Source of the DNA: a virus
Length of the DNA stretch: 28,752 nucleotides
Strand: one strand, 5' to 3'
Virus record (IMG/VR): IMGVR_UViG_3300010370_000174
Coordinates: 1-28,752 of that record
Numbering within the stretch: position 1 is the first letter of the stretch; each line of letters begins with the position of its first letter. The notes below the pieces were generated by a model. That model was not told the origin of the DNA and made no database searches. It saw only the letters and a list, made by a program, of their open reading frames with translations. Both the position numbers and the translations under genes were made by a program. Below, one piece after another: positions 17,581 through 28,752 of this stretch.

Positions 17581-17951
17581 GTGATGACCAAATCCTTGCC
17601 ATCAGCGCCCGTCAGCTCGTTCTTTTCCCGTTGCCCGAGGTACTGCTTACCAAGCCACACTAGCATCGTGGTGTTGCCTTCCTCTAACGCCCGCCATTGG
17701 TGGCGGCGCAGCGACATTTTGCCGCCTTCCATGCCGCTTTTATAAATCTCCATAAACTTCTCGTTGGTTAGCAGCGTATTGACGTGACAACCAAGCCAAG
17801 CGGCGATTTCGGTCTGCGTACATTGGATGCTTGCCAGCTTCTTAACAGCTTCATAATCAATCTCAAACGGGGGGCGACCGCCGCCTTCTCCTTGGTGGCC
17901 TTGCTTGGGTTGGCCGGTGCGTTCGCTAATGCGCGTCTCCTTGCGTTTCAT
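17562..17951 (-). CDS. terS: Terminase small subunit (DNA recognition)
   Basis: 129 aa. Residues about 33-62 (VKKLASIQCTQTEIAAWLGC followed by HVNTLL) form a helix-turn-helix of the kind used by small terminases to bind the packaging site. A helical oligomerisation region follows (LRRHQWRALEEGNTTMLVWLGKQYLGQREK). The ending KDLVITWLPPQ is a beta-strand tail typical of these proteins. It directly precedes terL and its ATG overlaps the TGA of the methyltransferase gene. It would form a ring that selects phage DNA and stimulates TerL. Confidence 0.88.
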   Translation of the reverse strand: MKRKETRISERTGQPKQGHQGEGGGRPPFEIDYEAVKKLASIQCTQTEIAAWLGCHVNTLLTNEKFMEIYKSGMEGGKMSLRRHQWRALEEGNTTMLVWLGKQYLGQREKNELTGADGKDLVITWLPPQ

Positions 17952-19156
17952 GCCGCGGCCTTAAACGGTTCGCCGGTAGATTCCAGCACGGCTTTCTGGC
18001 CGGTGAAGTCCTCCCAGCGTTTAACGATAACGTCCACGTACTTCGGGTCTAGTTCCATAATGCGGGCGATGCGTCCGTTCTTTTCCGCAGCAATTAACGT
18101 TGTACCGCTGCCCCCAAAGCAATCAATGACGGCATCCCCTGCTTTAGTGCTGTTAGCCAATGCTTTTTCTACAAGAGCAGCAGGCTTTTGCGTTGGGTGA
18201 ACATAACCTGTTGTTTTATCACGGTTTATTTGCCAAACGTCAGATTGGCTGCGGTCGCCATACCACGCGCCACCTTTGCTATAAAAAATAAACTCATGTT
18301 GTGGGCGGTATTCTTGATGCCCTAATCCAACTGATTTTTTATCCCAGACAATGCAACTAGTTACTAGCAGCCCTGCGCCTGTCATTGCTTGCTCAAATTG
18401 TGCATACGTTCGCCACGGGAAGCACACATAACTAGCGGCTCCCGCCTTACTTGCCGATTTTGCCGTTGTAAGCGCATCACGCACTAATTGGATTAAATCA
18501 TCGCCTTGGGCATCGTCATTTTTAATCATGCCAAACTGCTTTTTGCCCCGCCCACCCTCATACGCCATGCCGTAAGGCGGATCAGTAAACAACAGATCGG
18601 CTTGCAGACCAGCCATCAGCGTTGCCATTGCAGTTTCGCTGGTGCTATCGCCACACATTACCCGGTGTTGGCCGCATACCCATACGTCGCCAAGGCGCGT
18701 GACAGGCTCTACGGGCGGCTCGGGCGTATCGTCGGGGTCAGTTAGCCCCTCCGTTCCCTTTTCGGCCAATAGGGCGTCTATTTCGTCCGTGTTGAAGCCG
18801 GTAAGGTTTAGGTCAAAGTCCAGCGCCTTGAGGTCAGCCAACTCCAGTTTGAGCATGGCCTCATCCCACCCAGCGTTAAGGGCAAGTTTGTTGTCGGCAA
18901 TAACATAAGCCCGCTTTTGGGCGTCTGACAGGTGGGCAAGGCGTATGCACGGCACCTCGGTCAGTTTTAGCTTACGAGCAGCCATAACGCGCCCGTGACC
19001 GGCAATAATGCCGTTGGCCTCGTCTATCAATACGGGGTTGGTGAAGCCAAACTCGCGGATGCTGGCCGCGATCTGGGCTACCTGTGCGTCGCTATGTGTG
19101 CGGCTATTTTTCGCAAACGGGATCAGGGTGGCGATCCCGATTTGTTCAATTTGCAC
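17948..19156 (-). CDS. ParB-like domain fused to beta-class DNA methyltransferase
   Basis: 402 aa, GTG start directly after the TAG of the upstream gene. Residues 1-110 are a ParB/Srx-type domain with the GHGR motif at 53-56 and VPCIRLAHLSDAQKRAY. Residues 155-390 form an N6-adenine/N4-cytosine methyltransferase: motif IV DPPYG at 192-196, HPTQKP at 320-325, then motif I DCFGGSGT at 345-352. Catalytic motif before SAM motif makes it beta class, like CcrM. It methylates DNA; there is no partner restriction endonuclease nearby, so it is an orphan, probably protecting phage DNA or marking it. ParB-MTase fusions beside terminases are known in phages. ATGA overlap with terS. Confidence 0.9.
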   Translation of the reverse strand: MQIEQIGIATLIPFAKNSRTHSDAQVAQIAASIREFGFTNPVLIDEANGIIAGHGRVMAARKLKLTEVPCIRLAHLSDAQKRAYVIADNKLALNAGWDEAMLKLELADLKALDFDLNLTGFNTDEIDALLAEKGTEGLTDPDDTPEPPVEPVTRLGDVWVCGQHRVMCGDSTSETAMATLMAGLQADLLFTDPPYGMAYEGGRGKKQFGMIKNDDAQGDDLIQLVRDALTTAKSASKAGAASYVCFPWRTYAQFEQAMTGAGLLVTSCIVWDKKSVGLGHQEYRPQHEFIFYSKGGAWYGDRSQSDVWQINRDKTTGYVHPTQKPAALVEKALANSTKAGDAVIDCFGGSGTTLIAAEKNGRIARIMELDPKYVDVIVKRWEDFTGQKAVLESTGEPFKAAA

Positions 19157-19524
19157 TATTTGAAACGCTCCAGCTTGTACGACAGGGCGGCAATCTCACC
19201 CACGATCTCATCCACGATGTTCTGCAAGTCGGTGTCTTTCGGCAAATCGGTGCGAATGCCCTTTACGAACGTCAGCAGGCTGTCGGCGTAGGCAGCGGCG
19301 TCTTTCTGTACCTTAAACCCGTCCGGGTAGTCATCTAGCGGGATAATTCCGAAATGACCTTGGTAACTTTCGGCGTATTTGTCGGCCAACGCGATAATAT
19401 TTTCATAGTAATGGCCAAGCGCCTTATGAGCGGCGTAGCTCGCGGTGTTGAGGTGCAAATAGTGCGCTGCCGTGCTGCTATGGAGCAGTACACCTACGAA
19501 CTCGGCGGCATCTTTATGGCTCAT
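19156..19524 (-). CDS. DUF5856 ferritin/Dps-like phage protein
   Basis: 122 aa from MSHKDAAEFVGVLLHSSTAA, where the ATG overlaps the TGA of the preceding gene (ATGA); a longer frame reading back 44 codons is not needed. The sequence HYLHLNTASYAAHKALGHYYENIIALADKYAESYQG matches DUF5856, a four-helix family of phage proteins resembling ferritin/Dps helices, with histidines and glutamates at the spacing of a metal site (H21, H24, H33, H38, E41). The last 50 residues are helical. The role of the family is unproven; DNA protection or a structural helical bundle are options. It sits just ahead of the DNA methyltransferase. Confidence 0.75.
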   Translation of the reverse strand: MSHKDAAEFVGVLLHSSTAAHYLHLNTASYAAHKALGHYYENIIALADKYAESYQGHFGIIPLDDYPDGFKVQKDAAAYADSLLTFVKGIRTDLPKDTDLQNIVDEIVGEIAALSYKLERFK

Positions 19525-20132
19525 TGCGGCGTTAGCCTCAAGTTGGGCAGGATGATTGCAGTCGTAGCATCTCCCATCGCAAAACGCTCTGTCAACTGTC
19601 GTTCTGGCGGGTATACGAGGATGCGATTTGACAGGTTTATCTGCATGGCGTTCCACACGCCTTTTTCTATGCCTTCAAAGTCGTCTAGCGTGATGATGGT
19701 ATCGGGGTGGAACAGCCGTTCTAGGTGCGCCCGATCATCTGGCTGTAGCCGCCCGTCTACGTGTATGTGGTCAATTTGCCCGTCAAGTTTAGCGAGCATT
19801 TCTGTGCTGCTGCTGTGGTATTGCGTGACGTTCGCGTAAATCGGCAGCTTGAAGTTGTGTGTCATATCGCACGTATGCACCTCGGTATCGCCCCGAGCCA
19901 GCACAAACGTGGACTTGCCGATATAAGTGCCAATTTCCACCACGCGCTTCGGCTTGAAGTAGCGTTTAACCGCCCAAAGGGCAATTAGGCTGGCGTTGTT
20001 GGTGGAACCCGTCTGCTTTGCCGGGTCTAACGCCTCAAGGTCATCAAGGCGTTGCCACGGTAAATCTTCCAATCCGTCAAAAAGCGTATCCCAGATAGCC
20101 CTAGACAGTCGTTTTCTGTTTAAGTTCAGCAT
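19521..20132 (-). CDS. Class I SAM-dependent methyltransferase-like protein
   Basis: 203 aa. Motif I VVEIGTYIGKST at residues 64-75 and the following acidic strand (TEVHTCDMT) identify a Rossmann SAM fold of the O-methyltransferase/Methyltransf_24 type. DHIHVDGRL and TIITLDDFEG correspond to later core strands. The first 60 residues are a helical cap. The ATG has AGAGGA six bases upstream. It is the first gene of the long minus-strand array and starts 11 bases from a divergent glycosyltransferase gene. Substrate unknown; methylation of a sugar or small molecule is possible given the nearby glycosyltransferase. Confidence 0.75.
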   Translation of the reverse strand: MLNLNRKRLSRAIWDTLFDGLEDLPWQRLDDLEALDPAKQTGSTNNASLIALWAVKRYFKPKRVVEIGTYIGKSTFVLARGDTEVHTCDMTHNFKLPIYANVTQYHSSSTEMLAKLDGQIDHIHVDGRLQPDDRAHLERLFHPDTIITLDDFEGIEKGVWNAMQINLSNRILVYPPERQLTERFAMGDATTAIILPNLRLTPQ

Positions 20133-20143
20133 ATATTCCTCTC

Positions 20144-20797
20144 ATGCGCTTCGTATTTTTTCACGTAGGCGACGACATCGCCCTGCCGACCAAAATGGTT
20201 GCGTCCATCCACGCTCATAACCCGGGCGCGGAGGTGATCCAAGTCACAGATGGGATGACGCCTACCGTCCCCGGTGTCACTTGGTCACATATCACCGAAA
20301 TTGACCGCCAGTACCTCATGCTTGGTCGCACAGGGGCGTGGGCAGATTTGGGGTTAGATAGCCCTGCCCTATACCTTGACACCGACATGATCGTAAACGC
20401 CCCCATAGACGTTGTGGGAGCGTTAGGCGAGGGGTCTGTGGCGATGTGTCGGCGGTCATACAACCGGGATGCCATCTTTAACATCAAACAGCGTGGCTTG
20501 GACTTTTCGGAGTACGCAGGCAAGACGCTGGATGAGCTGTACCCATGGGTCGGGTGCTGCACGATCACCCGTGACGCATCGGTTTGGGCTGACCTGACCG
20601 AAATGTACTACGCCCTGCCTGATAAATTCTGGCGCTGGTACGGCGATCAGGAAGTGCTGCGCGAATACGCCAAACGTCATCCGGTCGTGGAGCTTCCCGA
20701 GGCGATCTGGGCGGGGCTGCCCGAATTTGGTGGTCGTCCCCTGATTACCCACTACAAAGGTCAACGCAAACACCTCATCTTGAATGCTCCGGCTTAA
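20144..20797 (+). CDS. GT-A-type glycosyltransferase
   Basis: 217 aa. The N-terminus MRFVFFHVGDDIALPTKMVA begins a nucleotide-diphospho-sugar transferase fold, and ALYLDTDMIVNAPID carries the metal-binding DxD at residues 79-81. WVGCCTITRD and FWRWYGDQEVLREYAKR fit the acceptor half. It transfers a sugar from an activated donor; acceptor unknown. It is the only plus-strand gene in this part: its 5' end is 11 bases from the divergent methyltransferase and its 3' end overlaps the convergent nuclease gene by 23 bases. No Shine-Dalgarno is visible, but TATATT ends six bases before the ATG, which would suit a leaderless message. Confidence 0.8.
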   Translation: MRFVFFHVGDDIALPTKMVASIHAHNPGAEVIQVTDGMTPTVPGVTWSHITEIDRQYLMLGRTGAWADLGLDSPALYLDTDMIVNAPIDVVGALGEGSVAMCRRSYNRDAIFNIKQRGLDFSEYAGKTLDELYPWVGCCTITRDASVWADLTEMYYALPDKFWRWYGDQEVLREYAKRHPVVELPEAIWAGLPEFGGRPLITHYKGQRKHLILNAPA

Positions 20798-21098
20798 TAG
20801 CCTCGGTATAACGCTCGTATAGGTCTTTTACGGCTTGTTCGGGGTCACGGGCAACGTAATACTCGCCCCGAGCCTCAAACGTCTGTCGGAACGCCTCCTG
20901 CGCTTCCCGCAGCTTTCCCTTGGGCATCTTGATTTCCACCCAGCACACCCACGGCGTCCCGTCAGGGAGTGGGCGGGTAACGAGCTTGTCGGGGATGCCC
21001 TGCCCTGCCTTGCCAAAGTCGGTGACCGTAAACCCGGCCTTGCGTAGCGCCTCGGTGATAATGGCGTCATTCCCGTCACGGCGGGCGGCGTGTCTCAT
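20775..21098 (-). CDS. VRR-NUC / PD-(D/E)XK-type nuclease
   Basis: 107 aa from MRHAARRDGNDAIITEALRK; this ATG overlaps the TGA of the upstream gene (ATGA), so longer starts are unlikely. The catalytic pattern is clear: GIPDKLV at 35-41, WVEIKMPKGK at 53-62, and LREAQEAF at 63-70, giving D37, E55, K57 and Q67. Small phage VRR-NUC proteins of this size cut branched DNA or act in recombination and repair. It ends convergently against the glycosyltransferase gene. Likely a Holliday-junction or flap nuclease; the exact activity is inference. Confidence 0.8.
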   Translation of the reverse strand: MRHAARRDGNDAIITEALRKAGFTVTDFGKAGQGIPDKLVTRPLPDGTPWVCWVEIKMPKGKLREAQEAFRQTFEARGEYYVARDPEQAVKDLYERYTEAIKPEHSR

Positions 21099-21811
21099 CG
21101 GACTTTCAGCACCAACATCTGTGGGTAGTAATTCATTTCGCAAAAAATCCCATTTTTGCTGTCAATCACCCGCGTGATTTCGTCAAACAAGCCCGTTATC
21201 AGCCTACGGTCGTTTGGCAGGGTGCTGTTGAAGTTCCTTCGGAACCGAGCCGCGTAACCCTCGTCATAAGTGCAGGCCAAGTCTTCAATGACGTAGTAAC
21301 CGCCCGAGCGCACCCAGTTCTGGCAATGCACCAGCGTGTCCACAATGTCCTCGGCAATGTGGCTACCGTCGTCTACAAACAAATCGTAATTACGCCGATC
21401 TAACGTGCGAGCGTCAGCAATCGTAATCGTGACGTTTGGCAGGTCTTTACACAGGTTGGCGCAATCAGGTCGTATGTCAAAACCTTCAATTTGGCTTTGC
21501 GGTAGGTAATTCGCCCACATACGCAACGAGGCACCACACGCCACACCAATCTCGCCCACCCGCAACCGAGCGGTCTTGCGGTTTGGCGTCAGGTCGGCAA
21601 TCAGCTTTTCGTAAACCGGCGTATATAGGTGCTTAATGTTGCCTTTGTCGCTGCCGTACAAGTCGGCAAGGCCGGTAAGCGATAACTCTGTAAGGTCAAC
21701 TTCACCCGTTTGCGGCGTGTATTCCTCCGGCGTGACGGTATCAAGGTAACGACGAACGCCGCCTCGTTCCTTGCTTCGTTGATCGCTCTGCCCAACCATA
21801 TTTGCCACCAT
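21095..21811 (-). CDS. CmcI/MycE-like SAM-dependent methyltransferase
   Basis: 238 aa. LADLYGSDKGNIKHLYTPVYEKL at residues 48-70 and RVGEIGVACGASLRMW at 84-99 are the hallmark of the sugar O-methyltransferase family that includes MycE-type enzymes and cephalosporin hydroxylase-like proteins. DLFVDDGSHIAED at 143-155 holds the metal-binding Asp pair and the His. Relatives methylate sugars of macrolides or lipopolysaccharide. A second ATG at 21799 is also possible. It is coupled by ATGA to the nuclease gene. With two glycosyltransferases and a DUF115 protein in the same genome, sugar methylation is a reasonable inference. Confidence 0.8.
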   Translation of the reverse strand: MVANMVGQSDQRSKERGGVRRYLDTVTPEEYTPQTGEVDLTELSLTGLADLYGSDKGNIKHLYTPVYEKLIADLTPNRKTARLRVGEIGVACGASLRMWANYLPQSQIEGFDIRPDCANLCKDLPNVTITIADARTLDRRNYDLFVDDGSHIAEDIVDTLVHCQNWVRSGGYYVIEDLACTYDEGYAARFRRNFNSTLPNDRRLITGLFDEITRVIDSKNGIFCEMNYYPQMLVLKVR

Positions 21812-21817
21812 ATTTGG

Positions 21818-22183
21818 TTACCCTTGCACTTGTTTAACGGGGGAATTCGCACGTTCTCTCAACCTCAATACGCCTTTTTCGCCAAACAACTCCCTGACTA
21901 ACCCAACAACGCCGGGATCGGTCAGTACGTCAGACGCTCCGATTTCGCGGATCAATTCGCCAACGCGAATCTTAATTCTCTCCCGCTCGCCCGCGTCCCC
22001 AGAAAACGCGGTGCGAGCCAGCAACGCATCGTAATACCGCAGACGGTTCAGCGGGCTGTTACGCACGGCTTCATCCCAACCGGAGGCACTACGCTCTACC
22101 GCTCGCGCCACTCGCTCGTCCGGCAGTCCCTTCGGGCCGGACTTCGCGGCGCTCGGGGGATAACTGTACTCGTCACCCATCAC
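21818..22183 (-). CDS. Hypothetical protein of the DUF1376 replication cassette
   Basis: 121 aa, starting MMGDEYSYPPSAAKSGPKGL. The first 30 residues look disordered; the rest is Arg/Glu-rich helix (ERERIKIRVGELIREIGASD and VGLVRELFGEKGVLRLRERA). It has no visible enzymatic motif, no cysteines and no membrane segment. Its start overlaps the end of the DUF1376 gene by four bases (ATGA), so the two are translated together. A helper of replication initiation (loader or adaptor) is a guess from context only. Confidence 0.65.
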   Translation of the reverse strand: MMGDEYSYPPSAAKSGPKGLPDERVARAVERSASGWDEAVRNSPLNRLRYYDALLARTAFSGDAGERERIKIRVGELIREIGASDVLTDPGVVGLVRELFGEKGVLRLRERANSPVKQVQG

Positions 22184-22626
22184 TCACCCCTCCGCGCTAC
22201 CACGCTCAACACAGCGGCGGTGCTAACCCTAGCGATGCCGTTTGGCTTCTGGTTATTGGTTATTGGATTATGGTTATTGGATAGCATTGCATCTGCATTG
22301 CGTTCGCTATGCGTTCGCATCCAACGCTGCTGGGCGCTCTGTTTCGCTTTTGCCTGTTTTTCCTGCACTTTTTCCATTTCCTTCATCGCCCGAGCGTTCA
22401 CATAGCCGGACGCAGTAAGAATGAAAAAGTCGTTTAGGATGCGACGGATTCTGTCACGTTCCCGTCCGTTGGTAGGGCGGCATAACTGCATCGCTTCCCG
22501 CTCACCAAACGGTTTTTCGGTGGCGTAAAAGCGATCTAGAAGGAGGGTGTAGACCCCATGCTCGTACGTCGTGAGATGGCCGGTATCTCGGGCGTAGTCA
22601 CCGAGATGGCGTGTATAGAAAAGCAT
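22180..22626 (-). CDS. DUF1376 (YdaU-type) replication-associated protein
   Basis: 148 aa. MLFYTRHLGDYARDTGHLTTYEHGVYTLLLDRFYATEKPF is the DUF1376 signature, a winged-helix domain found at the N-terminus of phage replication initiators. It is followed by a charged helix (KEMEKVQEKQAKAKQSAQQR) and an Asn/Pro-rich stretch (NNHNPITNNQKPN) encoded by a 7-bp tandem repeat. GGAGG stands four bases before the ATG. A lambda-O-like function, binding an origin inside or near its own gene, is inference. No helicase or polymerase gene is present in the window. Confidence 0.8.
   Translation of the reverse strand: MLFYTRHLGDYARDTGHLTTYEHGVYTLLLDRFYATEKPFGEREAMQLCRPTNGRERDRIRRILNDFFILTASGYVNARAMKEMEKVQEKQAKAKQSAQQRWMRTHSERNADAMLSNNHNPITNNQKPNGIARVSTAAVLSVVARRGE
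22253..22280. repeat. Four tandem 7-bp AT-rich units within the DUF1376 gene
   Basis: On the plus strand the units are TTATTGG, TTATTGG, ATTATGG and TTATTGG without gaps. On the coding (minus) strand they specify the Asn/Pro/Gln-rich segment near the C-terminus. In a GC-rich genome this is a local AT-rich patch. Lambda-type phages carry origin iterons inside their initiator gene, so an origin role is possible but unproven. Confidence 0.6.
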
Positions 22627-22654
22627 AATGCCTCCGCATAGTTAGAAAAACCAT

Positions 22655-22703
22655 GCGTAGCGGTTGACAGGTCAAGGACTCCCCCCTTAACCTTCCGCTA
22701 CGC
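22655..22703 (-). other. Long two-part hairpin in the leader of the DUF1376 gene
   Basis: The outer arms GCGTAGCGG (22655-22663) and CCGCTACGC (22695-22703) are perfectly complementary over 9 bp. The inner arms AGGTCAAGG (22669-22677) and CCTTAACCT (22685-22693) pair over 9 positions; the single mismatch becomes a G-U wobble in minus-strand RNA. The loop is 7 nt (22678-22684), with one-sided bulges of 5 and 1 nt between the stems. In the minus-strand transcript the structure is followed after four bases by five U residues (22645-22650 region), and it ends about 28 bases before the DUF1376 start. It could be an attenuator/terminator or a protein-binding RNA. Also within it is TTGAC-AG-GTCAA (22664-22675), a possible operator. 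Confidence 0.6.
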
Positions 22704-22779
22704 TCTGCAACACTTAAAGCGTATGGCAGCCCCCCTGCCGCGTCAACCCCCGTAACTGGGGGTTTGTCGTTTCTGGGGT

Positions 22780-23094
22780 TCATCGTTTGCGGTTCAGCCA
22801 TACTTCCATTTCCGTTGAAATGGTTACGTCAAGGAACGGGTAGGTGTACACATCCCCGTCCTGCCACACCACAAACATATCGTCTCCAACAAACCGCCAA
22901 CATCCAGTAAGAGCCACCTTGCCACCGTCACCTTGAGCGTAGGCAAGCCAGTCACCCTTGTTGCACTTGCCCTGATAACTAGTGAACGTGATCTTGCTGT
23001 TATCACGGTTAGGCAACGTACCGACAATTAGCGGCATTTCTTGTGCGACCGCTAACACCGGAACCAATAAAAGCCCTGCTATTGCCTTTTTCAT
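22780..23094 (-). CDS. Exported small protein with signal peptide
   Basis: 104 aa. MKKAIAGLLLVPVLAVAQEM is a classic Sec signal peptide: two Lys, a hydrophobic core of about 12 residues, and a likely cleavage after AVA. The mature part of about 85 residues has two cysteines (possible periplasmic disulfide) and many Trp/Tyr and beta-type segments (DDMFVVWQDGDVYTYPFLDV). It starts within the end of the Cro-like gene (TGA/ATG overlap), so it is expressed with the regulator. Secreted proteins encoded next to a repressor often act in superinfection exclusion, but no family is recognised and this is inference. Confidence 0.75.
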   Translation of the reverse strand: MKKAIAGLLLVPVLAVAQEMPLIVGTLPNRDNSKITFTSYQGKCNKGDWLAYAQGDGGKVALTGCWRFVGDDMFVVWQDGDVYTYPFLDVTISTEMEVWLNRKR

Positions 23095-23261
23095 CGCTTT
23101 TTCTCCGCTGGTTTAACGTGTCCCGCTTTGAACTGCCATGCCCGAGCAGCCGGGATTGCCCCAGCCTTCACCCATTGGCTTACAGCCCCTTTCGTGACGC
23201 CAAAGGCTTCCGCTAACGCCTGCTGGCTACCGTATCGTTTTATGAGCTTGTGGATGTCCAT
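23091..23261 (-). CDS. Cro/YdaS-like helix-turn-helix regulator
   Basis: 56 aa: starts MDIHKLIKRYGSQQALAEAF, continues GVTKGAVSQWVKAGAIPAAR and ends in a basic tail. The segment QQALAEAFGVTKGAVSQWV is a textbook Cro-family helix-turn-helix; 'A.A.GV.KGAVSQW...G.IP..RAWQ' is typical of YdaS/Cro-like phage repressors. It faces a divergent early operon whose promoters carry a 16-bp palindrome; a degenerate copy overlaps its own predicted -10, implying autoregulation. No Shine-Dalgarno is present, and the -10 ends six bases before the ATG, suggesting a leaderless mRNA. It is coupled to the exported-protein gene. Confidence 0.85.
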   Translation of the reverse strand: MDIHKLIKRYGSQQALAEAFGVTKGAVSQWVKAGAIPAARAWQFKAGHVKPAEKKR

Positions 23262-23267
23262 GCTGAC

Positions 23268-23297
23268 AGTTTAGCCCGTTTAACTTTTTTCGCACAA
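23268..23297 (-). promoter_or_regulatory. Predicted promoter of the Cro-like gene (leaderless)
   Basis: Reading the minus strand: -35 TTGTGC (23297-23292), 18 bp, -10 TAAACT (23273-23268), then GTCAGC and the ATG at 23261. The start of transcription should fall at or within a base or two of the ATG, as in lambda cI from PRM. The -10 lies inside the degenerate operator, which fits self-repression. The -35 is weak (4 of 6). Confidence 0.5.
23269..23284. promoter_or_regulatory. Degenerate operator copy (O1)
   Basis: GTTTAG-CCCG-TTTAAC: the left half is identical to the two strong operators and the right half matches CTAAAC at four of six positions. It lies over the predicted -10 of the Cro-like gene. 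Likely a weaker binding site for the same regulator; inference from pattern. Confidence 0.5.
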
Positions 23298-23301
23298 CCC
23301 C

Positions 23302-23329
23302 TTGACACCATTGTTTAGGCAACTAAACT
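23302..23329 (+). promoter_or_regulatory. Early promoter P1
   Basis: TTGACA at 23302-23307, 16-bp spacer, TAAACT at 23324-23329; a perfect -35 and a four-of-six -10. Transcription would begin near 23336 and give a leader of about 33 nt before the ATG at 23369. Operator O2 covers the spacer end and the -10, so bound regulator should block RNA polymerase. Confidence 0.7.
23313..23328. promoter_or_regulatory. Operator O2: palindrome GTTTAG-GCAA-CTAAAC
   Basis: A perfect 6-bp inverted repeat with a 4-bp centre overlapping the P1 -10. The same half-sites, with the same 4-bp spacing, recur at 23728-23743. Size and symmetry fit a dimeric Cro-like helix-turn-helix protein such as the one encoded divergently at 23091-23261. 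Confidence 0.75.
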
Positions 23330-23333
23330 ACAG

Positions 23334-23366
23334 GGGTTGATAGACACAACCCACAGATAGGAGCAA
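23334..23366 (+). promoter_or_regulatory. Leader hairpin and ribosome-binding site of P1
   Basis: GGGTTG (23334-23339) pairs with CAACCC (23347-23352) around the 7-nt loop ATAGACA, followed by AGGAGCAA (23359-23366) six bases before the ATG. The same arrangement recurs after P2 (GTTG, loop ACAAACA, CAAC, AGGAGCAA). The repeated RNA shape and loop pattern AYARACA suggest a conserved element, function unknown. Confidence 0.55.
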
Positions 23367-23368
23367 AC

Positions 23369-23566
23369 ATGAAACCGCAACCTGCAAAGCTGCTGGCCGC
23401 CAAAAACGCCATGCACCTGCATTACGTCCACAAATGGCAGTTGTGGGGGCTTTACCACCTCCAAAACCTTGACCGTCCTGCCGAGTACATCAGCCCACGC
23501 CAACTGCGCGAGTTTTCGGAATCGGAATTGCTGCGGCTGATGAAGCTGGTACGGGGTGGCGTATGA
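23369..23566 (+). CDS. Early hypothetical protein, first gene after P1
   Basis: 65 aa, starting MKPQPAKLLAAKNAMHLHYV. Basic and aromatic-rich N-terminal half (HKWQLWGLYHLQNL) and a charged helical end (SPRQLREFSESELLRLMKLV). AGGAG lies six bases upstream of the ATG. Its TGA overlaps the ATG of the next gene. No family recognised; small leading genes of phage early operons often take over host functions, but nothing in the sequence shows which. Confidence 0.7.
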   Translation: MKPQPAKLLAAKNAMHLHYVHKWQLWGLYHLQNLDRPAEYISPRQLREFSESELLRLMKLVRGGV

Positions 23567-23733
23567 ACATGGAAGCTGACTTTGCCTACGCCGTAGAGCG
23601 CCTGATCCAGATAATTCTGCGAATGAACCCAAATTGCTCGCAGGCTGAATTGCTGGCTGCTGGCCGATTGCTGATGCAGTACGAGCAACGCCGCCGCGAT
23701 CAGACGCAAAAAGTCGTTGACATGGCCGTTTAG
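23563..23733 (+). CDS. 56-aa early hypothetical protein
   Basis: Begins MNMEADFAYAVERLIQIILR, continues MNPNCSQAELLAAGRLLMQY, and ends in a basic segment (EQRRRDQTQKVV). It is entirely helical by composition with one cysteine. The ATG overlaps the preceding TGA (ATGA). The stop codon TAG is part of operator O3, so the end of this gene and the P2 control site share bases. No function recognised. Confidence 0.65.
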   Translation: MNMEADFAYAVERLIQIILRMNPNCSQAELLAAGRLLMQYEQRRRDQTQKVVDMAV

Positions 23734-23744
23734 ACGACTAAACT
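23717..23744 (+). promoter_or_regulatory. Early promoter P2
   Basis: TTGACA at 23717-23722, 16-bp spacer, TAAACT at 23739-23744: identical boxes and spacing to P1. The -35 lies inside the last codons of the 56-aa gene. Transcription would start near 23751 and read the rest of the early operon. It overlaps operator O3. Confidence 0.7.
23728..23743. promoter_or_regulatory. Operator O3: palindrome GTTTAG-ACGA-CTAAAC
   Basis: Second perfect copy of the O2 palindrome, with a different 4-bp centre, again placed over the -10 of a promoter. Identical half-sites with diverged surroundings argue for selection on binding by the same regulator. Confidence 0.75.
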
Positions 23745-23751
23745 ATTAACC

Positions 23752-23776
23752 GTTGACAAACACAACACAGGAGCAA
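23752..23776 (+). promoter_or_regulatory. Leader hairpin and ribosome-binding site of P2
   Basis: GTTG (23752-23755) pairs with CAAC (23763-23766) around loop ACAAACA; AGGAGCAA follows at 23769-23776, five bases before the ATG at 23782. It mirrors the P1 leader, with a shorter stem. Confidence 0.5.
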
Positions 23777-23781
23777 CAGAG

Positions 23782-24048
23782 ATGTTCAAGGATAAATACA
23801 GCGCCCTCGGCACTTTCTACGCCCTCGGCAATAAGTTTGAAGTTGACGTTGAGTATTCGCAGGACATGGACAACAGCGTTTTTGTAGAAAGCGCCACCCT
23901 GATCGGCATTTACTTGGACAACGACAAACACGCCTCCTCGCTCAACCACAACATCAAGCTAGACCTAACCGATCTGTCAACCGACGACGAGTTTGAGTTG
24001 ACCGAGATTGCCACCCTTGATGCGCTCCGCAACGGGGGTCTGGAATGA
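23782..24048 (+). CDS. Acidic early hypothetical protein
   Basis: 88 aa, starting MFKDKYSALGTFYALGNKFE. Strongly acidic (many Asp/Glu, few Arg), with alternating strands and a helical end (EFELTEIATLDALRNGGLE). Such small acidic phage early proteins sometimes mimic DNA, as anti-restriction proteins do, but no match is recognised. It is first after P2 with a good AGGAG site, and its TGA overlaps the ATG of the next gene. Confidence 0.7.
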   Translation: MFKDKYSALGTFYALGNKFEVDVEYSQDMDNSVFVESATLIGIYLDNDKHASSLNHNIKLDLTDLSTDDEFELTEIATLDALRNGGLE

Positions 24049-24167
24049 AATCCCCGTACCCGCAATTCATTGCCATTGCCATCCTGTTTCTGATCGCTGC
24101 CGCCTGTGACCCCTGCGGGGACGGCGGTTGCACCGCAGCCGAGGAGCGAGCCAGCCATGCACGATGA
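24045..24167 (+). CDS. Tiny putative lipoprotein
   Basis: 40 aa: MKSPYPQFIAIAILFLIAAA then C21 and a short Cys/Gly-rich end with three cysteines in total. A hydrophobic segment (residues 8-20) followed by AAAC resembles a lipoprotein signal with lipobox, or a small membrane anchor. The ATG overlaps the preceding TGA (ATGA). The mature part would be only 20 residues. It resembles Rz1-type outer-membrane lipoproteins in size, but is in the early operon rather than the lysis cassette. Confidence 0.55.
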   Translation: MKSPYPQFIAIAILFLIAAACDPCGDGGCTAAEERASHAR

Positions 24168-24285
24168 CGATATGACTTGGTGGCATCACCAAGACGAATT
24201 GATGCAGCAACTTGAAGAACAAGAACGCATTGAAGCCTGTAACCGGGCATTGGATGAACTGAAAGGAGAAGAAGATGCAGAGTGA
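24157..24285 (+). CDS. 42-aa acidic helical protein upstream of ERF
   Basis: MHDDDMTWWHHQDELMQQLE, then a charged helix ending KGEEDAE. It overlaps the putative lipoprotein by 11 bases and the ERF gene start by 11. The GAGGAG about 15 bases upstream is the only ribosome-binding candidate. Real by tight packing and open frame, but small; function unknown. An alternative view is that this stretch merely carries the ERF ribosome-binding site AAAGGAG (24260s). Confidence 0.5.
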   Translation: MHDDDMTWWHHQDELMQQLEEQERIEACNRALDELKGEEDAE

Positions 24286-24919
24286 AACCATCGGCGCATT
24301 GGCCGCCGCGTTAAGCAAAGCCCAAGCCGACATTACCGGGGCGCTGAAAGACAGCAGCAACCCGTTTTTCAAGTCCAAGTACGCCGATCTAGCGTCTTGT
24401 TGGGACGCTTGCCGTAAGCAGTTAGCGGCTAACGGTTTGTCGGTAATACAGACCACGCAGATGACAGAGCAGGGCTTGATGCTCGTCACCACGCTCGCTC
24501 ACAGCAGCGGTGAGTGGATTGCAGGACAGATGCCCGTGCTGACCAAGGACAACAGCCCGCAGGGGCAAGGTTCTGGCATTACCTACGCTCGCCGCTATGC
24601 CCTCGCAGCGATTGTGGGATTGGCGCAGATTGACGATGACGCGGAGGCTGCCCAAGGCCGAGCGTTTACGAACGACCCGCGTGGCGATCTGGGTAAGAAG
24701 GTTGACCAGACCAAGCGTGACCAGTTCGTGCAGCAGTTCCGTGGCGCGTTTGATTTAGACGCCGAGGAGAAAGACATAGCCCTTGCCGTGATGGCGGTAC
24801 ATGAGGCGCTCAACCCTGACCACGACCTGTATATCGCCGTGGCAGACGTACTGACGGCAAAGGAACGGTCAGCGATCAAGAAGTACATTCAAATGGCAAA
24901 GGAGCAGAACCGTGGATAA
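24275..24919 (+). CDS. erf: ERF-family single-strand annealing protein
   Basis: 214 aa. Residues 1-130 match the ERF superfamily: LAAALSKAQADITGALKDSSNPFFKSKYADLA, HSSGEWIAGQMPV and the diagnostic block QGQGSGITYARRYALAAIVG followed by DDDAEA at about 97-126. ERF proteins form rings that anneal homologous single strands, circularising or recombining phage DNA independently of RecA. The C-terminal 90 residues are helical and charged. AAAGGAG precedes the ATG. It neighbours an SSB-like protein, a nuclease, NinB and DUF1364, so this is the recombination module. Confidence 0.92.
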   Translation: MQSETIGALAAALSKAQADITGALKDSSNPFFKSKYADLASCWDACRKQLAANGLSVIQTTQMTEQGLMLVTTLAHSSGEWIAGQMPVLTKDNSPQGQGSGITYARRYALAAIVGLAQIDDDAEAAQGRAFTNDPRGDLGKKVDQTKRDQFVQQFRGAFDLDAEEKDIALAVMAVHEALNPDHDLYIAVADVLTAKERSAIKKYIQMAKEQNRG

Positions 24920-25196
24920 GTTTGACCCGAATATGCGTGGCGTCCTGTTCAAGAACGACAAGGGCGAGAACGCCAAACGTCCTGACTTTCGTGGGTCGTG
25001 CGTAATCAACAACGTGGATTTCAACGTGTCGGGCTGGAAGAAAACGAGCCAGAAAACGGGTGATACCTACTTGTCGCTGAAGTTTGAGGCGAAGGGCGAG
25101 GGCAAGCTGTCGCGTAGTGGTGAACCGCAGCGCCAGCCGACCAAGCAGCCGCAGATAACCGAAAAGAATTGGGACGACCTTGATACACCCTTCTGA
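24912..25196 (+). CDS. SSB-like ssDNA-binding protein
   Basis: 94 aa, GTG start with AAAGGAG eight bases upstream, overlapping the ERF end. Residues 5-62 (MRGVLFKNDKGENAKRPDFR ... GWKKTSQKTGDTYLSLKFEA) resemble the short OB-type phage proteins that bind single strands. A Gln/Pro/Lys linker then leads to the end NWDDLDTPF. The acidic, Phe-terminated tip is like the DDDIPF tip by which bacterial SSB recruits partner enzymes. In an ERF cassette this is a natural partner. Known SSBs are usually longer; the family call is inference from motif and context. Confidence 0.7.
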   Translation: MDKFDPNMRGVLFKNDKGENAKRPDFRGSCVINNVDFNVSGWKKTSQKTGDTYLSLKFEAKGEGKLSRSGEPQRQPTKQPQITEKNWDDLDTPF

Positions 25197-25650
25197 CTTT
25201 GAGGCACGGTTTAGGGCTAGTCGCCCGGCAGAGATTGTCGTGGCGACTTACCTACTGAACCTCGGGCATACGGTGACGTTGCCCAAGCGTCGTATGGCGA
25301 AAGACTTTGCTGACCGCAAAGAGTTTGCCGATAAGGGCGACGTATATGCCTCGGGTAAACGAATAGAGGTAAAACACATCAAGCATGATTTCCAGTACGA
25401 GGCGTGGCCGTTTGAGACAGCCGCTATCTGTGCCAAGAAGTCGTTTGATGCTGCCGATCCTCGCCCCGATTACTACTACATCGTCAACGCAAGCCTGACC
25501 GTGGCGGCGCTGGTGGATGTGCGAACCACGTTCCCTGACTGGCTGGTGCGGAAAATCACCGATAAGGAGCGTGGATACGAATACGACGTTTACGCCGTTG
25601 CGCCCGAATATCTCGGATGGCGATATATAGACTTTGAGGAACGCTTATGA
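25180..25650 (+). CDS. PD-(D/E)XK-type nuclease
   Basis: 156 aa, probably from the TTG giving MIHPSDFEARFRASRPAEIV, overlapping the SSB-like gene by 17 bases; no closer ATG would keep the fold. The core is visible: a helix (AEIVVATYLLNLGH), then GDVYASGKRIEVKH at 53-66 with D54, E63 and K65, the classic D-(n)-ExK arrangement, then YYYIVNASLTVAALVDV. This looks like a Holliday-junction or restriction-type endonuclease fold. It ends in an ATGA overlap with the glycosyltransferase gene. The substrate is unknown; recombination intermediates are plausible. Confidence 0.7.
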   Translation: MIHPSDFEARFRASRPAEIVVATYLLNLGHTVTLPKRRMAKDFADRKEFADKGDVYASGKRIEVKHIKHDFQYEAWPFETAAICAKKSFDAADPRPDYYYIVNASLTVAALVDVRTTFPDWLVRKITDKERGYEYDVYAVAPEYLGWRYIDFEERL

Positions 25651-26315
25651 CGGAACTCCCCATCTTCATCGGCTACGACAGCCGTGAGGACATCGCGTAT
25701 CGGGTAGCGCGGCGCAGCATTGAGCGCCATGCCCGTAACCCCATCTACATCCAGCCGATTGACCAAGCGTATATGCGCTCGGTAGGACTGTACTGGCGTC
25801 CTGACGATCCGCTTTCGTCAACGCAGTTTAGTTTTACGCGCTTTCTCGTCCCCTACCTTTGTGAGTACAAGGGTTGGGCGGTGTTTCTGGATTGTGACTT
25901 CTTGGTACGGCATGACCTGACGCAGATATGGCGCTATGTTGATAAAACGAAAGCGGTCTTTTGCGTACACCACGACTACAAGCCTACCGAGGCGGTCAAA
26001 ATGGATGGCAAGGCGCAGCATCCCTACGCTCGCAAAAACTGGTCATCATTTATGTTCATCAACTGCGAGCATGAGGCAACGCAACGCCTCACGCCAGAGC
26101 TGGTGAACAGCGAGACGGGAATGTACTTGCATCAGTTCAAGTGGTGCGCTGACGATCAGATTGGCGAGTTGCCCATGACCTTCAACTACCTTGAGGGCTG
26201 GCACACCAAGGCTGACGAACCCGACCCGGTGTGCGTACACATGACCCGTGGCGGCCCGTGGTTCCCCGGCTACCAAGACGTTGAGTACGCCGAGGAGTGG
26301 AAGGCGTATACATGA
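25647..26315 (+). CDS. Glycosyltransferase (GT8-like, GT-A fold)
   Basis: 222 aa. IFIGYDSREDIAYRVARRSI near the start is characteristic of GT8-related phage and bacterial transferases, and AVFLDCDFLVRHD carries the DxD metal site at residues 82-84. FSFTRFLVPYLCEYKG, SSFMFINCEH and FNYLEGW are further family blocks. It should add a sugar from a nucleotide-sugar donor; acceptor unknown. It sits in the early operon among recombination genes, coupled by ATGA on both sides. Second glycosyltransferase of the window and not closely similar to the one at 20144-20797 apart from the DxD. Confidence 0.82.
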   Translation: MTELPIFIGYDSREDIAYRVARRSIERHARNPIYIQPIDQAYMRSVGLYWRPDDPLSSTQFSFTRFLVPYLCEYKGWAVFLDCDFLVRHDLTQIWRYVDKTKAVFCVHHDYKPTEAVKMDGKAQHPYARKNWSSFMFINCEHEATQRLTPELVNSETGMYLHQFKWCADDQIGELPMTFNYLEGWHTKADEPDPVCVHMTRGGPWFPGYQDVEYAEEWKAYT

Positions 26316-26722
26316 AACGCATTTTCCCCAAAGGCACTACACCCGAGCAGATGGCGGCTGCCGTTATCCGCATGACGCAAGGGCTAGACCCGAGCAAGGT
26401 GTGGGCGGTAGAGGTGGCCGAGTGGAAGAAGCCCAAAACCTCACAGCAGCTGGCCTACCTCTGGGGCGTGGTTTACCCAATGATCATGGAGGCGGGTGGA
26501 GAGGCGTTATAGGGTTGGACACGCGATGACCTACATGAGTATTTCCTTGGCGAGATATTCGGCTGGGAAACGCTCACAGGGCTTGGCAAGAAGCGTCTGC
26601 GACCACTTAAGCGAACATCACGCATGACCAAGCAAGAATTCACCGAATACTTACACGGCATTGAGAACAGGCTGATAGAACTTGGCATCGGGCCGTTACC
26701 GGAGCCGATTTATGCTGCGTAA
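26312..26722 (+). pseudogene. ninB: NinB-like recombination protein interrupted by an in-frame TAG
   Basis: From ATG at 26312 (ATGA with the upstream gene) the frame reads MKRIFPKGTTPEQMAAAVIR ... KTSQQLAYLWGVVYPMIMEA ... GGEAL, then TAG at 26510-26512 (codon 67). It continues without any other stop for 69 codons (GWTRDDLHEYFLGEIFGWET ... MTKQEFTEYLHGIENRLIEL) to TAA at 26720-26722. The combined 135 residues match the length and layout of NinB (lambda NinB/Orf, about 142-146 aa), an ssDNA-binding recombination mediator. Both halves look intact. So this is a recent nonsense mutation, an amber readthrough case, or a sequence error. CAG to TAG is the simplest change. Confidence 0.8.
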
Positions 26723-26996
26723 AGAAGCCCGAGGGCGTGGATGCACGGTGCGTATACCGGGCGTCTGTAACTTCAACAGCGAGACGGTCGTGCTGGCACA
26801 TCTGCGCGTAGCAGGGGTTAGCGGCATGGGGCTGAAGTCACCCGATCTGCTGGGTGCGTGGTGCTGTTCTAGCTGCCACGACGAGGTAGACGGCAGGACG
26901 CACAAAAGCGGGCTGTCACGCGATGAGCTGCGCCTAGCGCACTACGACGGCATGGCTCGCACGATCATGCAATTACACAAAGAGGGATTGGTATGA
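26712..26996 (+). CDS. DUF1364 putative zinc/HNH-type nuclease
   Basis: 94 aa from MLRKEARGRGCTVRIPGVCN; this ATG overlaps the end of the ninB frame by 11 bases. The pattern 'R.EARGR.C.VRIPG.CN...ETVVLAHLR..G..GMG.KSPDLLGAWCCSSCHDEVDGRT' is the DUF1364 signature. Two N-terminal and three central cysteines plus histidines suit a zinc-bound HNH-like fold. In lambdoid phages this family lies in the nin region beside NinB, as here. Likely a structure-specific nuclease in recombination; activity is inference. Coupled by ATGA to the next gene. Confidence 0.82.
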   Translation: MLRKEARGRGCTVRIPGVCNFNSETVVLAHLRVAGVSGMGLKSPDLLGAWCCSSCHDEVDGRTHKSGLSRDELRLAHYDGMARTIMQLHKEGLV

Positions 26997-27544
26997 ACTT
27001 CTGGTGCGACACGCAGTACATCACGGCATACGTGCGTAACGAGTTTCTGCACGACCATGAGAAAGGCAAAGGTGAATTTACCCTCTGCACCGTGTTTGGT
27101 TTTCGTGCTGAACCCATGCGCGTACCCTACTTCCAAATCATGTTGGAGTCAGGCGCACAATGGGCGCGTATCCCGATTCACGCGCTTTGTAGCAAGCCCT
27201 GTCCCGAGATGGCGTTACAGTTGACTGTGTGGTGGGATAGCTTTAGCCGCAACTGTCAGGTCAAAGAGGTGCAGTTCCTGCGTAACCACCGCGTCAAGGC
27301 TATAGGGCGCGATGGGGTGCAGCGACCGGGGACGTACCTGATGACCGTATTCTGGTGTGACGGTGGATGGAGTGAGGTGCCGGATCAGTCCAAAGACCAC
27401 CACATCATCGCTTTAGACTCGGGGCAATGGATTGCCTACCCTAACAACAGGTTGTTATGGGCTGACCCGAGCTGGATCGGAGGGGAAGTGCCGAGGGATT
27501 GGCGCTCCCCCTCTGATAACTACAGCGTGGAGGCACTACCGTGA
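26993..27544 (+). CDS. Conserved phage hypothetical protein
   Basis: 183 aa: MNFWCDTQYITAYVRNEFLH, rich in Trp (over ten) and with several Cys. Blocks such as VFGFRAEPMRVPYFQIMLESGAQWARIPIHALCSK and YLMTVFWCDGGWSEVPDQSKDHHIIALDSGQWIAYPNNRLLW suggest a compact beta-rich domain. I have the impression of similar proteins in other phage early regions but no functional name. ATGA with DUF1364 upstream and GTGA with the next small gene downstream. No signal or membrane segment. Confidence 0.75.
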   Translation: MNFWCDTQYITAYVRNEFLHDHEKGKGEFTLCTVFGFRAEPMRVPYFQIMLESGAQWARIPIHALCSKPCPEMALQLTVWWDSFSRNCQVKEVQFLRNHRVKAIGRDGVQRPGTYLMTVFWCDGGWSEVPDQSKDHHIIALDSGQWIAYPNNRLLWADPSWIGGEVPRDWRSPSDNYSVEALP

Positions 27545-27666
27545 AACGGCTTATAAAGGCTTTATGGCGGTTCTGGCGCGAACGTAGCGCCGAGGCTAAC
27601 CGAGAGTGGTCAAGCGTCCCTAATCCCGAGTGGAGGGCGTCTAGGGGCGGGAGGGATTACTGGTGA
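27541..27666 (+). CDS. 41-aa basic Trp/Arg-rich protein
   Basis: GTG start overlapping the preceding TGA (GTGA): MKRLIKALWRFWRERSAEAN, then REWSSVPNPEWRASRGGRDY and a final W. Strongly basic with an amphipathic N-terminal helix. Its TGA overlaps the GTG of the next gene. Supported only by open frame and coupling; function unknown. Confidence 0.5.
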   Translation: MKRLIKALWRFWRERSAEANREWSSVPNPEWRASRGGRDYW

Positions 27667-27833
27667 ACTACGAGGATGACGCGCTAGAGCAAGAATTAAA
27701 GGCTGCGCCGTGGGGATACGGGCAGCGCCGACCGCCGACGTTTCTGGAAATCCTAGACCGTATGCGGCGCGTAGGGTTGGGCGAGGAGGCTGATTGGCTG
27801 CTGCGCGAATGGACGATTTTAAGTCAGAAATAA
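27663..27833 (+). CDS. 56-aa hypothetical protein, last gene of the early operon
   Basis: GTG start with GGGAGGG about nine bases upstream, overlapping the previous TGA. Starts MNYEDDALEQELKAAPWGYG and continues QRRPPTFLEILDRMRRVGLG, then a helical end. Phage early regions often hold such short helical 'PPTFLEILDRM' proteins. Its 3' end overlaps the convergent lysozyme gene by 15 bases; no separate terminator is seen between them. Confidence 0.6.
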   Translation: MNYEDDALEQELKAAPWGYGQRRPPTFLEILDRMRRVGLGEEADWLLREWTILSQK

Positions 27834-28298
27834 CGCCCGTTCGTCGTTACGCCGCTTAACTAGTCCCGGCAGCACCTTGCCTGCCGCCTTTGTCCACATC
27901 AGAAAGGCGTCAGCAGCGCCTTCTATGTCCCCTCGGTTGTAGCGCATCCGTATGCTGCTGCGCTGTAGGTTCCCAAGCCCGACGTTAAAGGCAAAGCTTA
28001 CCAAAGCATCAAATTGCCCTTGATGATTAACAGCAGCAGGGCAATATCGGGCCACGCCGCGCTCAAACCGCGCAAGGTCTTGAGCAAGGATAGCGTCCAC
28101 CTCTCCCATCGTGAGGCTGCGATCCCAGCCATCGGGTATCGGTAGGTTCTTCCGATCCTCATACTTCACCGCCGCGTGTGAGGGGTCAATGACATGGCCT
28201 ACCGCAGTTGTCCACAGCAATGCAGGACACCTGTAAGGACGTAGCCTTACGCCCTCATGGTGTTTGATCATGCGGATAGCCGCGTCAGATACCTTCAT
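27819..28298 (-). CDS. Endolysin: GH24 (T4-type) lysozyme
   Basis: 159 aa. The catalytic arrangement E15-x8-C24-x5-T30 (HHEGVRLRPYRCPALLWTTAVGH) matches E-x8-(D/C)-x5-T of T4-type muramidases, with Cys in the middle position as in some phages such as P1. FDALVSFAFNVGLGNL and the C-terminal LPGLVKRRNDERALFL are also family signatures. No signal or SAR segment is present, so it needs the holin to reach the wall. Insert between residues 35 and 60 (PSHAAVKYEDRKNLPIPDGW) is longer than in T4. ATGA overlap with the holin gene; convergent with the early operon. Confidence 0.92.
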   Translation of the reverse strand: MKVSDAAIRMIKHHEGVRLRPYRCPALLWTTAVGHVIDPSHAAVKYEDRKNLPIPDGWDRSLTMGEVDAILAQDLARFERGVARYCPAAVNHQGQFDALVSFAFNVGLGNLQRSSIRMRYNRGDIEGAADAFLMWTKAAGKVLPGLVKRRNDERALFLT

Positions 28299-28752
28299 TT
28301 CTGGCTAAAAGCGCGACCACCGAAATGAAAGGCAATAATGCTGGCAAGGATTGCCATTTCATCCTCGGAAAACACGTTTTCCAGCGCAATCGCAAACGGT
28401 ACGCTCTGGTTCCATGCGTACCACATTCCAGCGATGTTGATGATGACTAGCTCTAGCACAAAGATGTAGGTGACGACCGGGCGCACCGAGGCGCGTAGGT
28501 TAATCATCCATTGGGATGCGCCTTTACCAATCTCTACGTCGTGGCTGTACAGGGCTTGGCGTTCCTCGGCAGCGGTCTGCGTCTGGATTTGCTCCAGTTT
28601 GATTTCCTCAACCCGTGCCTGCGCGATAAACCCACGTTCAGCGAGGGCAAGTTCACGCTCCTTCTGTGCGGCAACTAACGCAAGCTCATGCTTCTTGTCC
28701 TGCCGATCTTGGAAGATTTGCAGAATCTTGGGCAGGCCGCCCGCTAGAAACG
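28295..28752 (-). CDS. Holin (3TM type), partial at the window edge
   Basis: An open frame runs in from the right edge: FLAGGLPKILQIFQDRQDKK, a charged coiled-coil (HELALVAAQKERELALAERG ... VEEIKLEQIQTQTAAEERQA), then two membrane segments: TYIFVLELVIINIAGMWYAW and AILASIIAFHFGGRAF, ending SQK. A shorter version would start at an internal ATG (28507), but the coding frame clearly extends beyond. The pattern, an N-terminal Gly-rich segment, charged helix and two C-terminal TM helices, matches the 'holin of 3TMs' family used for lysis and gene-transfer-agent release. It is directly upstream of and coupled to the lysozyme gene. The N-terminus is outside the window. Confidence 0.75.
   Translation of the reverse strand, partial: FLAGGLPKILQIFQDRQDKKHELALVAAQKERELALAERGFIAQARVEEIKLEQIQTQTAAEERQALYSHDVEIGKGASQWMINLRASVRPVVTYIFVLELVIINIAGMWYAWNQSVPFAIALENVFSEDEMAILASIIAFHFGGRAFSQK

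Follow-up and report, generated by a model that had tools for sequence, protein, structure and literature searches.

A candidate Cro-only early switch with exchangeable operators in an apparently lytic group of uncultured phages

Comparative analysis of an uncultured viral contig suggests that an apparently lytic group of phages times its early transcription with a negative-feedback switch assembled from known parts, in which Cro would act alone; we put the probability of this reading at about 80%. Throughout, the window means the entire 28,752-bp stretch of DNA that was analyzed. The arrangement is probably unusual in combining the lack of a repressor partner, a leaderless divergent cro gene, a duplicate promoter-operator borne by cargo genes, and a swappable cassette.

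The proposed switch would work as follows. On entry, two strong sigma70-type promoters, P1 and P2, would drive a rightward operon (p65, p56, p88, Erf, an SSB-like protein, and others), and meanwhile a weaker divergent promoter would make a leaderless cro mRNA. Cro dimers would then occupy a 16-bp operator over each -10 element. The perfect operators O2 and O3 would be closed first and the degenerate operator O1 later, so that Cro would set its own ceiling. The early genes would as a result be shut off in a timed manner, without a branch to lysogeny. Cro and its operators would travel as one specificity cassette, and accessory pairs like p65-p56 would carry their own promoter-operator, which would place the cargo under Cro and let the core operon keep its promoter. 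The features concerned are these:

22627-22779: noncoding stretch with GC-rich hairpins (conserved hairpin region 22731..22779), conserved where the flanking DNA is not
22780..23094, minus strand: 104-aa gene with a signal-peptide-like N-terminus and a 4-bp overlap with the cro stop
23091..23261, minus strand: cro, predicted 56-aa P22/N15-type Cro (MDIHKLIKRYGSQQALAEAFGVTKGAVSQWVKAGAIP...), Pfam P22_Cro
23268..23273, minus strand: predicted cro -10 (TAAACT), at a distance of 6 nt from the ATG
23269..23284: O1, degenerate candidate operator GTTTAGCCCGTTTAAC with two mismatches, over the cro -10, its position conserved in relatives
23302..23329, plus strand: P1, predicted early promoter TTGACA-16-TAAACT (-35 at 23302-23307, -10 at 23324-23329, 16-bp spacer)
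23313..23328: O2, perfect candidate operator GTTTAGGCAACTAAAC over the P1 -10
23336..23350, plus strand: leader element GTTGATAGACACAAC, close to where P1 transcription is expected to start, with a hairpin fold at P1
23369..23566, plus strand: p65, accessory early gene without a family match, present in all 14 two-promoter loci
23563..23733, plus strand: p56, accessory early gene ending in VDMAV-stop, a C-terminus for which the P2 -35 and the half-site GTTTAG code
23717..23744, plus strand: P2, predicted early promoter TTGACA-16-TAAACT (-35 at 23717-23722, -10 at 23739-23744, 16-bp spacer)
23728..23743: O3, perfect candidate operator GTTTAGACGACTAAAC over the P2 -10
23752..23766, plus strand: second copy of the leader element GTTGACAAACACAAC, behind P2, near the point (23737-23753) where homology to phages of other Cro types begins again
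23782..24048, plus strand: p88, first core early gene, of no family, directly behind the sole promoter in several relatives
24275..24919, plus strand: Erf-type single-strand annealing protein, a member of the early operon

Cro, its promoters, and the candidate operators

The initial annotation called the 56-aa product Cro-like, and family, sequence, and structure comparisons all agree. The protein matches Pfam P22_Cro with 44.6 bits (cut-off 30.2), and its best PDB sequence match is N15 Cro. An AlphaFold model made from relatives is all-helical, with four helices and no strands (pLDDT 82.5, pTM 0.59); 6on0 and 2hin are among its best structure matches, and it superimposes on N15 Cro with its consensus operator (6on0) at a TM score of 0.78, with a modest Foldseek E of 6e-3. 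In the recognition region, GVTPGAVYQW of N15 Cro corresponds to GVTKGAVSQW here; the C-terminus is short. The product of 23091-23261 is therefore predicted to be a P22/N15-type Cro: the family match and the N15-like helical fold are accompanied by a 16-bp palindromic candidate operator over the early promoters. Presumably cro forms a two-gene operon with the 104-aa gene, which is a variable passenger of that operon and is unaligned in relatives with an aligned cro (e.g., L125).

The coordinates and pattern counts bear out the description of two modules that consist of TTGACA, 16 bp, and TAAACT, with GTTTAG-N4-CTAAAC over the -10. The two copies of this palindrome, at 23313-23328 and 23728-23743, are the only perfect ones in the window, for which an order-1 Markov model predicts 0.00085, and this rules out a chance origin. 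When up to two mismatches were allowed, the 16-spaced promoter pattern matched five times (1.3 expected), and the exact matches were P1 and P2, which were also the only sigma70-consensus-like sites in 19000-28752 (shuffled sequences averaged 5.6). Two details of the description needed correction. The promoters had been said to face cro, whereas P1 and P2 are directed away from it, and the sole site on cro's own promoter is the third one. Their flanking bases had been said to differ, whereas both are followed by a common leader element and the ribosome-binding site AGGAGCAA.

The third site had been described as a degenerate copy over the -10 of the divergent regulator gene. It is present there, but its significance comes from the relatives and not from the window alone, in which seven sites with up to three mismatches were found against 7.8 expected. 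The relatives were collected in three viral-contig scans that yielded 108 distinct cro-promoter regions, and their Cro proteins were grouped by recognition helix; the Cro of the window is of type A. A degenerate operator lies over the cro -10 in nearly all type-A loci. Among these relatives, the promoter-side arm of O1 varies (TAAACT, TAGACT, TATAGT, TATATT, TACACT, TAAAAT) and appears to be a compromise between a -10 element and an operator. Because this arm varies and resembles a -10, a weaker and later autoregulation of cro through O1 is supported, without being proven.

The same region suggests how cro may be translated. The cro -10 ends 6-8 nt before the ATG in all 59 type-A loci, and a Shine-Dalgarno-like string precedes cro in two of them and is absent from the other 57. 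The mRNA from which cro is translated is thus probably leaderless. It should be mentioned that the -35 of the cro promoter is poor, which makes the activity of this promoter uncertain.

Operator types and cassette swapping among relatives

Cro and its candidate operator are linked by type. At P1, the type-A operator GT[T/A]TAGN4CTAAAC accompanies type-A Cro in all loci whose flanking DNA is long enough (58/58) and is absent from all 46 loci with other Cros; its distance from the cro ATG is always +52 to +57. Among these relatives, the two arms hardly change, and the four central bases vary. The motif TGTCAAGN4CTATCC accompanies type B (18/18), and TTAACN4GTTAA, with at most one mismatch, accompanies types C and D (17/17). 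In types C and D, R replaces Q before the conserved W of Cro, and GTTAAC-type palindromes overlie the cro -10 (+7 to +10); several loci have one near +52 as well, as in type A. In the loci examined, the candidate operator type thus tracks the Cro type without exception. An earlier rendering of the type-B operator as TTGACAN5TGTCAA was discarded, since its spacer varies between 5 and 6; TGTCAAG-N4-CTATCC with a varying N4 fits all 18 better. As a separate observation, L193, L154, L117, and other type-B loci have a near-symmetric divergent promoter, GGATAG-N5-TTGACA-N5/6-TGTCAA-N5-CTATCC, in which the -35 regions overlap.

Whole records agree with this picture. A type-A site occurs in 10 of 10 type-A records and in none of nine others, always beside cro or at P2, and each type-A record has one or two exact sites, all at early promoters. 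Searching the genome and its relatives thus revealed no scatter of the palindrome, and in the window, too, both exact copies lie only at early promoters. Stoperator-like sites elsewhere were sought in the window and in whole relative records, and none was found. Because cro adjoins O1, O2, and P1, part of the linkage could reflect hitch-hiking or common descent; the better evidence is the distance of P2 and the variation of the operator centre, which speak against hitch-hiking as the whole explanation.

The palindromes might instead be bound by another regulator, of host or phage, with the adjacent Cro binding elsewhere, and since operator motifs were resolved for types A to D, types E and F leave some room for this. 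We consider it very improbable, since the linkage between the Cro helix and the operator is type-specific even for the distant P2, the sites occur only in records with a type-A cro, and the operator matches N15 OR3. The N15 operators are annotated in U45242 as OR3 TTATAGCTGGCTATAA, OR2 TTATACCTAGCTTTAA, and OR1 TTATTGATTATAATAA; OR3 and the window operator are both 16 bp long and have a TAG-N4-CTA core in common. The operators of phiKO2, a close relative of N15, are very similar or identical to those of N15, and among the OR sites, phiKO2 Cro binds only fragments with OR3 (PMC4997575). The Cro of PY54 is also reported to be selective for a single site (PMC4488713).

On genomes that are otherwise alike, Cro is exchanged together with its operators. 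Cro types A, B, and C are all found beside identical Erf N-termini, and at least 24 changes of Cro type are needed on an Erf tree (130 columns, weak support, with Erf itself mosaic). The DNA alignment of the window with one type-B locus (L123) and two type-C loci (L124 and L129) breaks off sharply near 22772-22779 and resumes at the leader element (23737-23751); in each of these three loci, the block that follows is about 87% identical to the window. With the type-A locus L125, homology is continuous through cro and both promoters. The edges of the cassette would thus be the conserved hairpin region on the left, which belongs to a noncoding stretch that is possibly a terminator or an origin, and the leader element on the right.

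The second promoter, its cargo, and the early operon

The initial annotation proposed that one short protein could shut off the early operon at two points. The two promoter-operators of the window stand, but the layout is not general: many relatives have a single promoter, and P2, which occurs only with the p65-p56 cargo, does not belong to the core. Two operators were found in 14 distinct loci, all of type A, in which O2 and the second operator are 415-712 bp apart. All 14 have p65 and p56, with P2 at the end of p56, and P2, although it lies behind unrelated genes, always has the same operator type (14/14). In several relatives without p65-p56, p88 directly follows the single promoter. The simplest history would be that the cargo pair was inserted with its own Cro-controlled promoter, or was lost by recombination between P1 and P2.

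It could be objected that recombination produced P2 as a passive by-product, a promoter-operator duplicate left by cargo insertion and without a regulatory role. Its confinement to loci with p65-p56, the position of p88 directly behind the sole promoter in several relatives, and the leader sequence common to P1 and P2 would all fit such an origin. On the other side, the -35, -10, and operator of P2 are perfect or near-perfect in all 14 loci, in spite of the fact that they encode the C-terminus of p56. In the window, the P2 -35 and the first half-site read GTT GAC ATG GCC GTT TAG (V D M A V stop), and the C-termini in other loci are VDLAV, VDTAV, VDITV, and VDIAV. The retention of these elements under a coding constraint suggests selection, and we regard a purely passive P2 as rather unlikely, while giving it more weight than the other alternatives considered here.

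The leader GTTGAYARACACAAC, common to 23336-23350 and 23752-23766, is shared by the majority of type-A and type-E relatives and by some of type B. It lies close to the expected +1 and may be a hairpin at the 5' terminus or an initially transcribed sequence. It had no match in Rfam. A leader hairpin with covariation was considered, given a stem that reads GTTG/CAAC in most type-A leaders and GGTC/GACC in one, along with two type-D cases; it was dropped because the P2 copy folds no better than shuffled sequences and the 3' arm is often missing from types B, C, and F.

Family searches assigned no family to p65, p56, or p88 of the rightward operon, which continues with Erf and an SSB-like protein. 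Further along, the early gene at 26993-27544 (plus strand) encodes a 183-aa protein that matches the phage ferredoxin family phrog_3704 and is possibly an auxiliary metabolic gene. Elsewhere in the window, 17948-19156 (minus strand), near the terminase gene, encodes a ParB-like domain fused to a DNA methyltransferase (phrog_498/phrog_620).

Lifestyle, known systems, and meaning

The lack of a cI partner in the window, noted at the outset, now extends to 18 longer relatives. No S24 protein or cI-like gene was found in any of them, and a prophage repressor sharing the operators, as in a bistable CI/Cro switch, was likewise not found in the window and these relatives. Searches of the 18 relatives (29-37 kb) for PF00589, PF00239, PF00717, and PF13614 (tyrosine integrase, resolvase, S24, and ParA) returned nothing, with controls that gave matches, and no integrase family of PHROGs appeared among the main open reading frames of the window. 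In nearly all 18, the Cro was the sole protein matched by HTH_3; in G013 there is a second HTH_3-like match. These observations favour a lytic lifestyle for the group.

The contigs are uncultured and classed as linear, with fragmentary ends; a repressor gene could be located beyond those ends or have diverged too far for detection. The locus might accordingly be half of a temperate CI/Cro switch whose repressor uses the same operators. Cro families usually occur in temperate phages, the contig is 28.8 kb long against 35-37 kb for its longest relatives, and its structural genes, on the strand opposite to the early operon, resemble those of Mx8/Mx9 and BUCT555, as the portal and capsid do; the BUCT555 record annotates an integrase. 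Against this stand the absence of S24, integrase, resolvase, and ParA from 18 relatives of up to 37 kb, the Cro as sole HTH_3 match in most of them, and the restriction of the operators to cro and the early promoters. In addition, when 84,980 genomes of bacteria and archaea were scanned, two weak matches and no close Cro turned up. We therefore judge a hidden temperate partner to be improbable, and prefer the Cro-only switch. Searches by DNA and by Cro found no relative among isolated phages, and we found no clear precedent in the open-access literature for a lytic phage with Cro and without CI, an absence that such a search does not prove.

The Cro proteins of N15, phiKO2, PY54, and P22 share the fold and sequence of this one, and N15 OR3 shares its 16-bp palindrome with an N4 centre. 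N15, phiKO2, and PY54, however, are temperate telomere phages in which Cro and a prophage repressor (CB/CI) share one OR region, whereas no repressor was found here; their cro is the first gene of the early operon, whereas here it is divergent and probably leaderless.

The lambda CI/Cro system has similar divergent promoters, operators over promoter elements, Cro as an early shut-off, and sites of unequal strength, which could allow repression in a set order. It differs in that here no CI and no tripartite operators were found, each -10 has a single operator, and the cro promoter is the weaker one. In lambda, the leaderless transcript belongs to cI. A Cro-only autorepressed early operon is found in lambda dv plasmids and cI-minus lambda, which are laboratory derivatives; there, as proposed here, Cro alone limits early or replication transcription with no lysogenic repressor. 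Here, in contrast, the Cro-only state appears to be natural and widespread, and cro lies outside the repressed operon.

The temperate cluster A mycobacteriophages have a CI-like repressor and up to about 30 asymmetric stoperators, most of them outside promoters, and repressor and site specificities diverge together to give heterotypic groups (PMC6550527). The likeness is that one regulator has several genomic sites and that specificities diverge together. The difference is that here there are two or three palindromic sites, all in promoters; many sites outside promoters were not seen in the type-A records examined.

What might drive the swapping of specificities? Immunity-type diversity is normally attributed to prophage repressors, and if these phages have none, the swapping of Cro-operator pairs needs another cause. 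We tentatively raise the possibility, which we think has more against it than for it, of heteroimmunity without lysogeny in an obligately lytic group, in which type-A Cro in an infected cell would shut the early promoters of any incoming type-A phage. If this were true, such a brake on superinfection would select unit swaps between types that do not recognize each other (at least A, B, C/D, and E) on one backbone. If there is no repressor, exclusion between co-infecting lytic phages through Cro becomes a testable cause. The approximately 100 Cro-operator pairs, which differ in a few helix residues and half-site bases, also provide natural material for a Cro recognition code, and P2 illustrates how accessory genes may come with a promoter under the control of the resident regulator.
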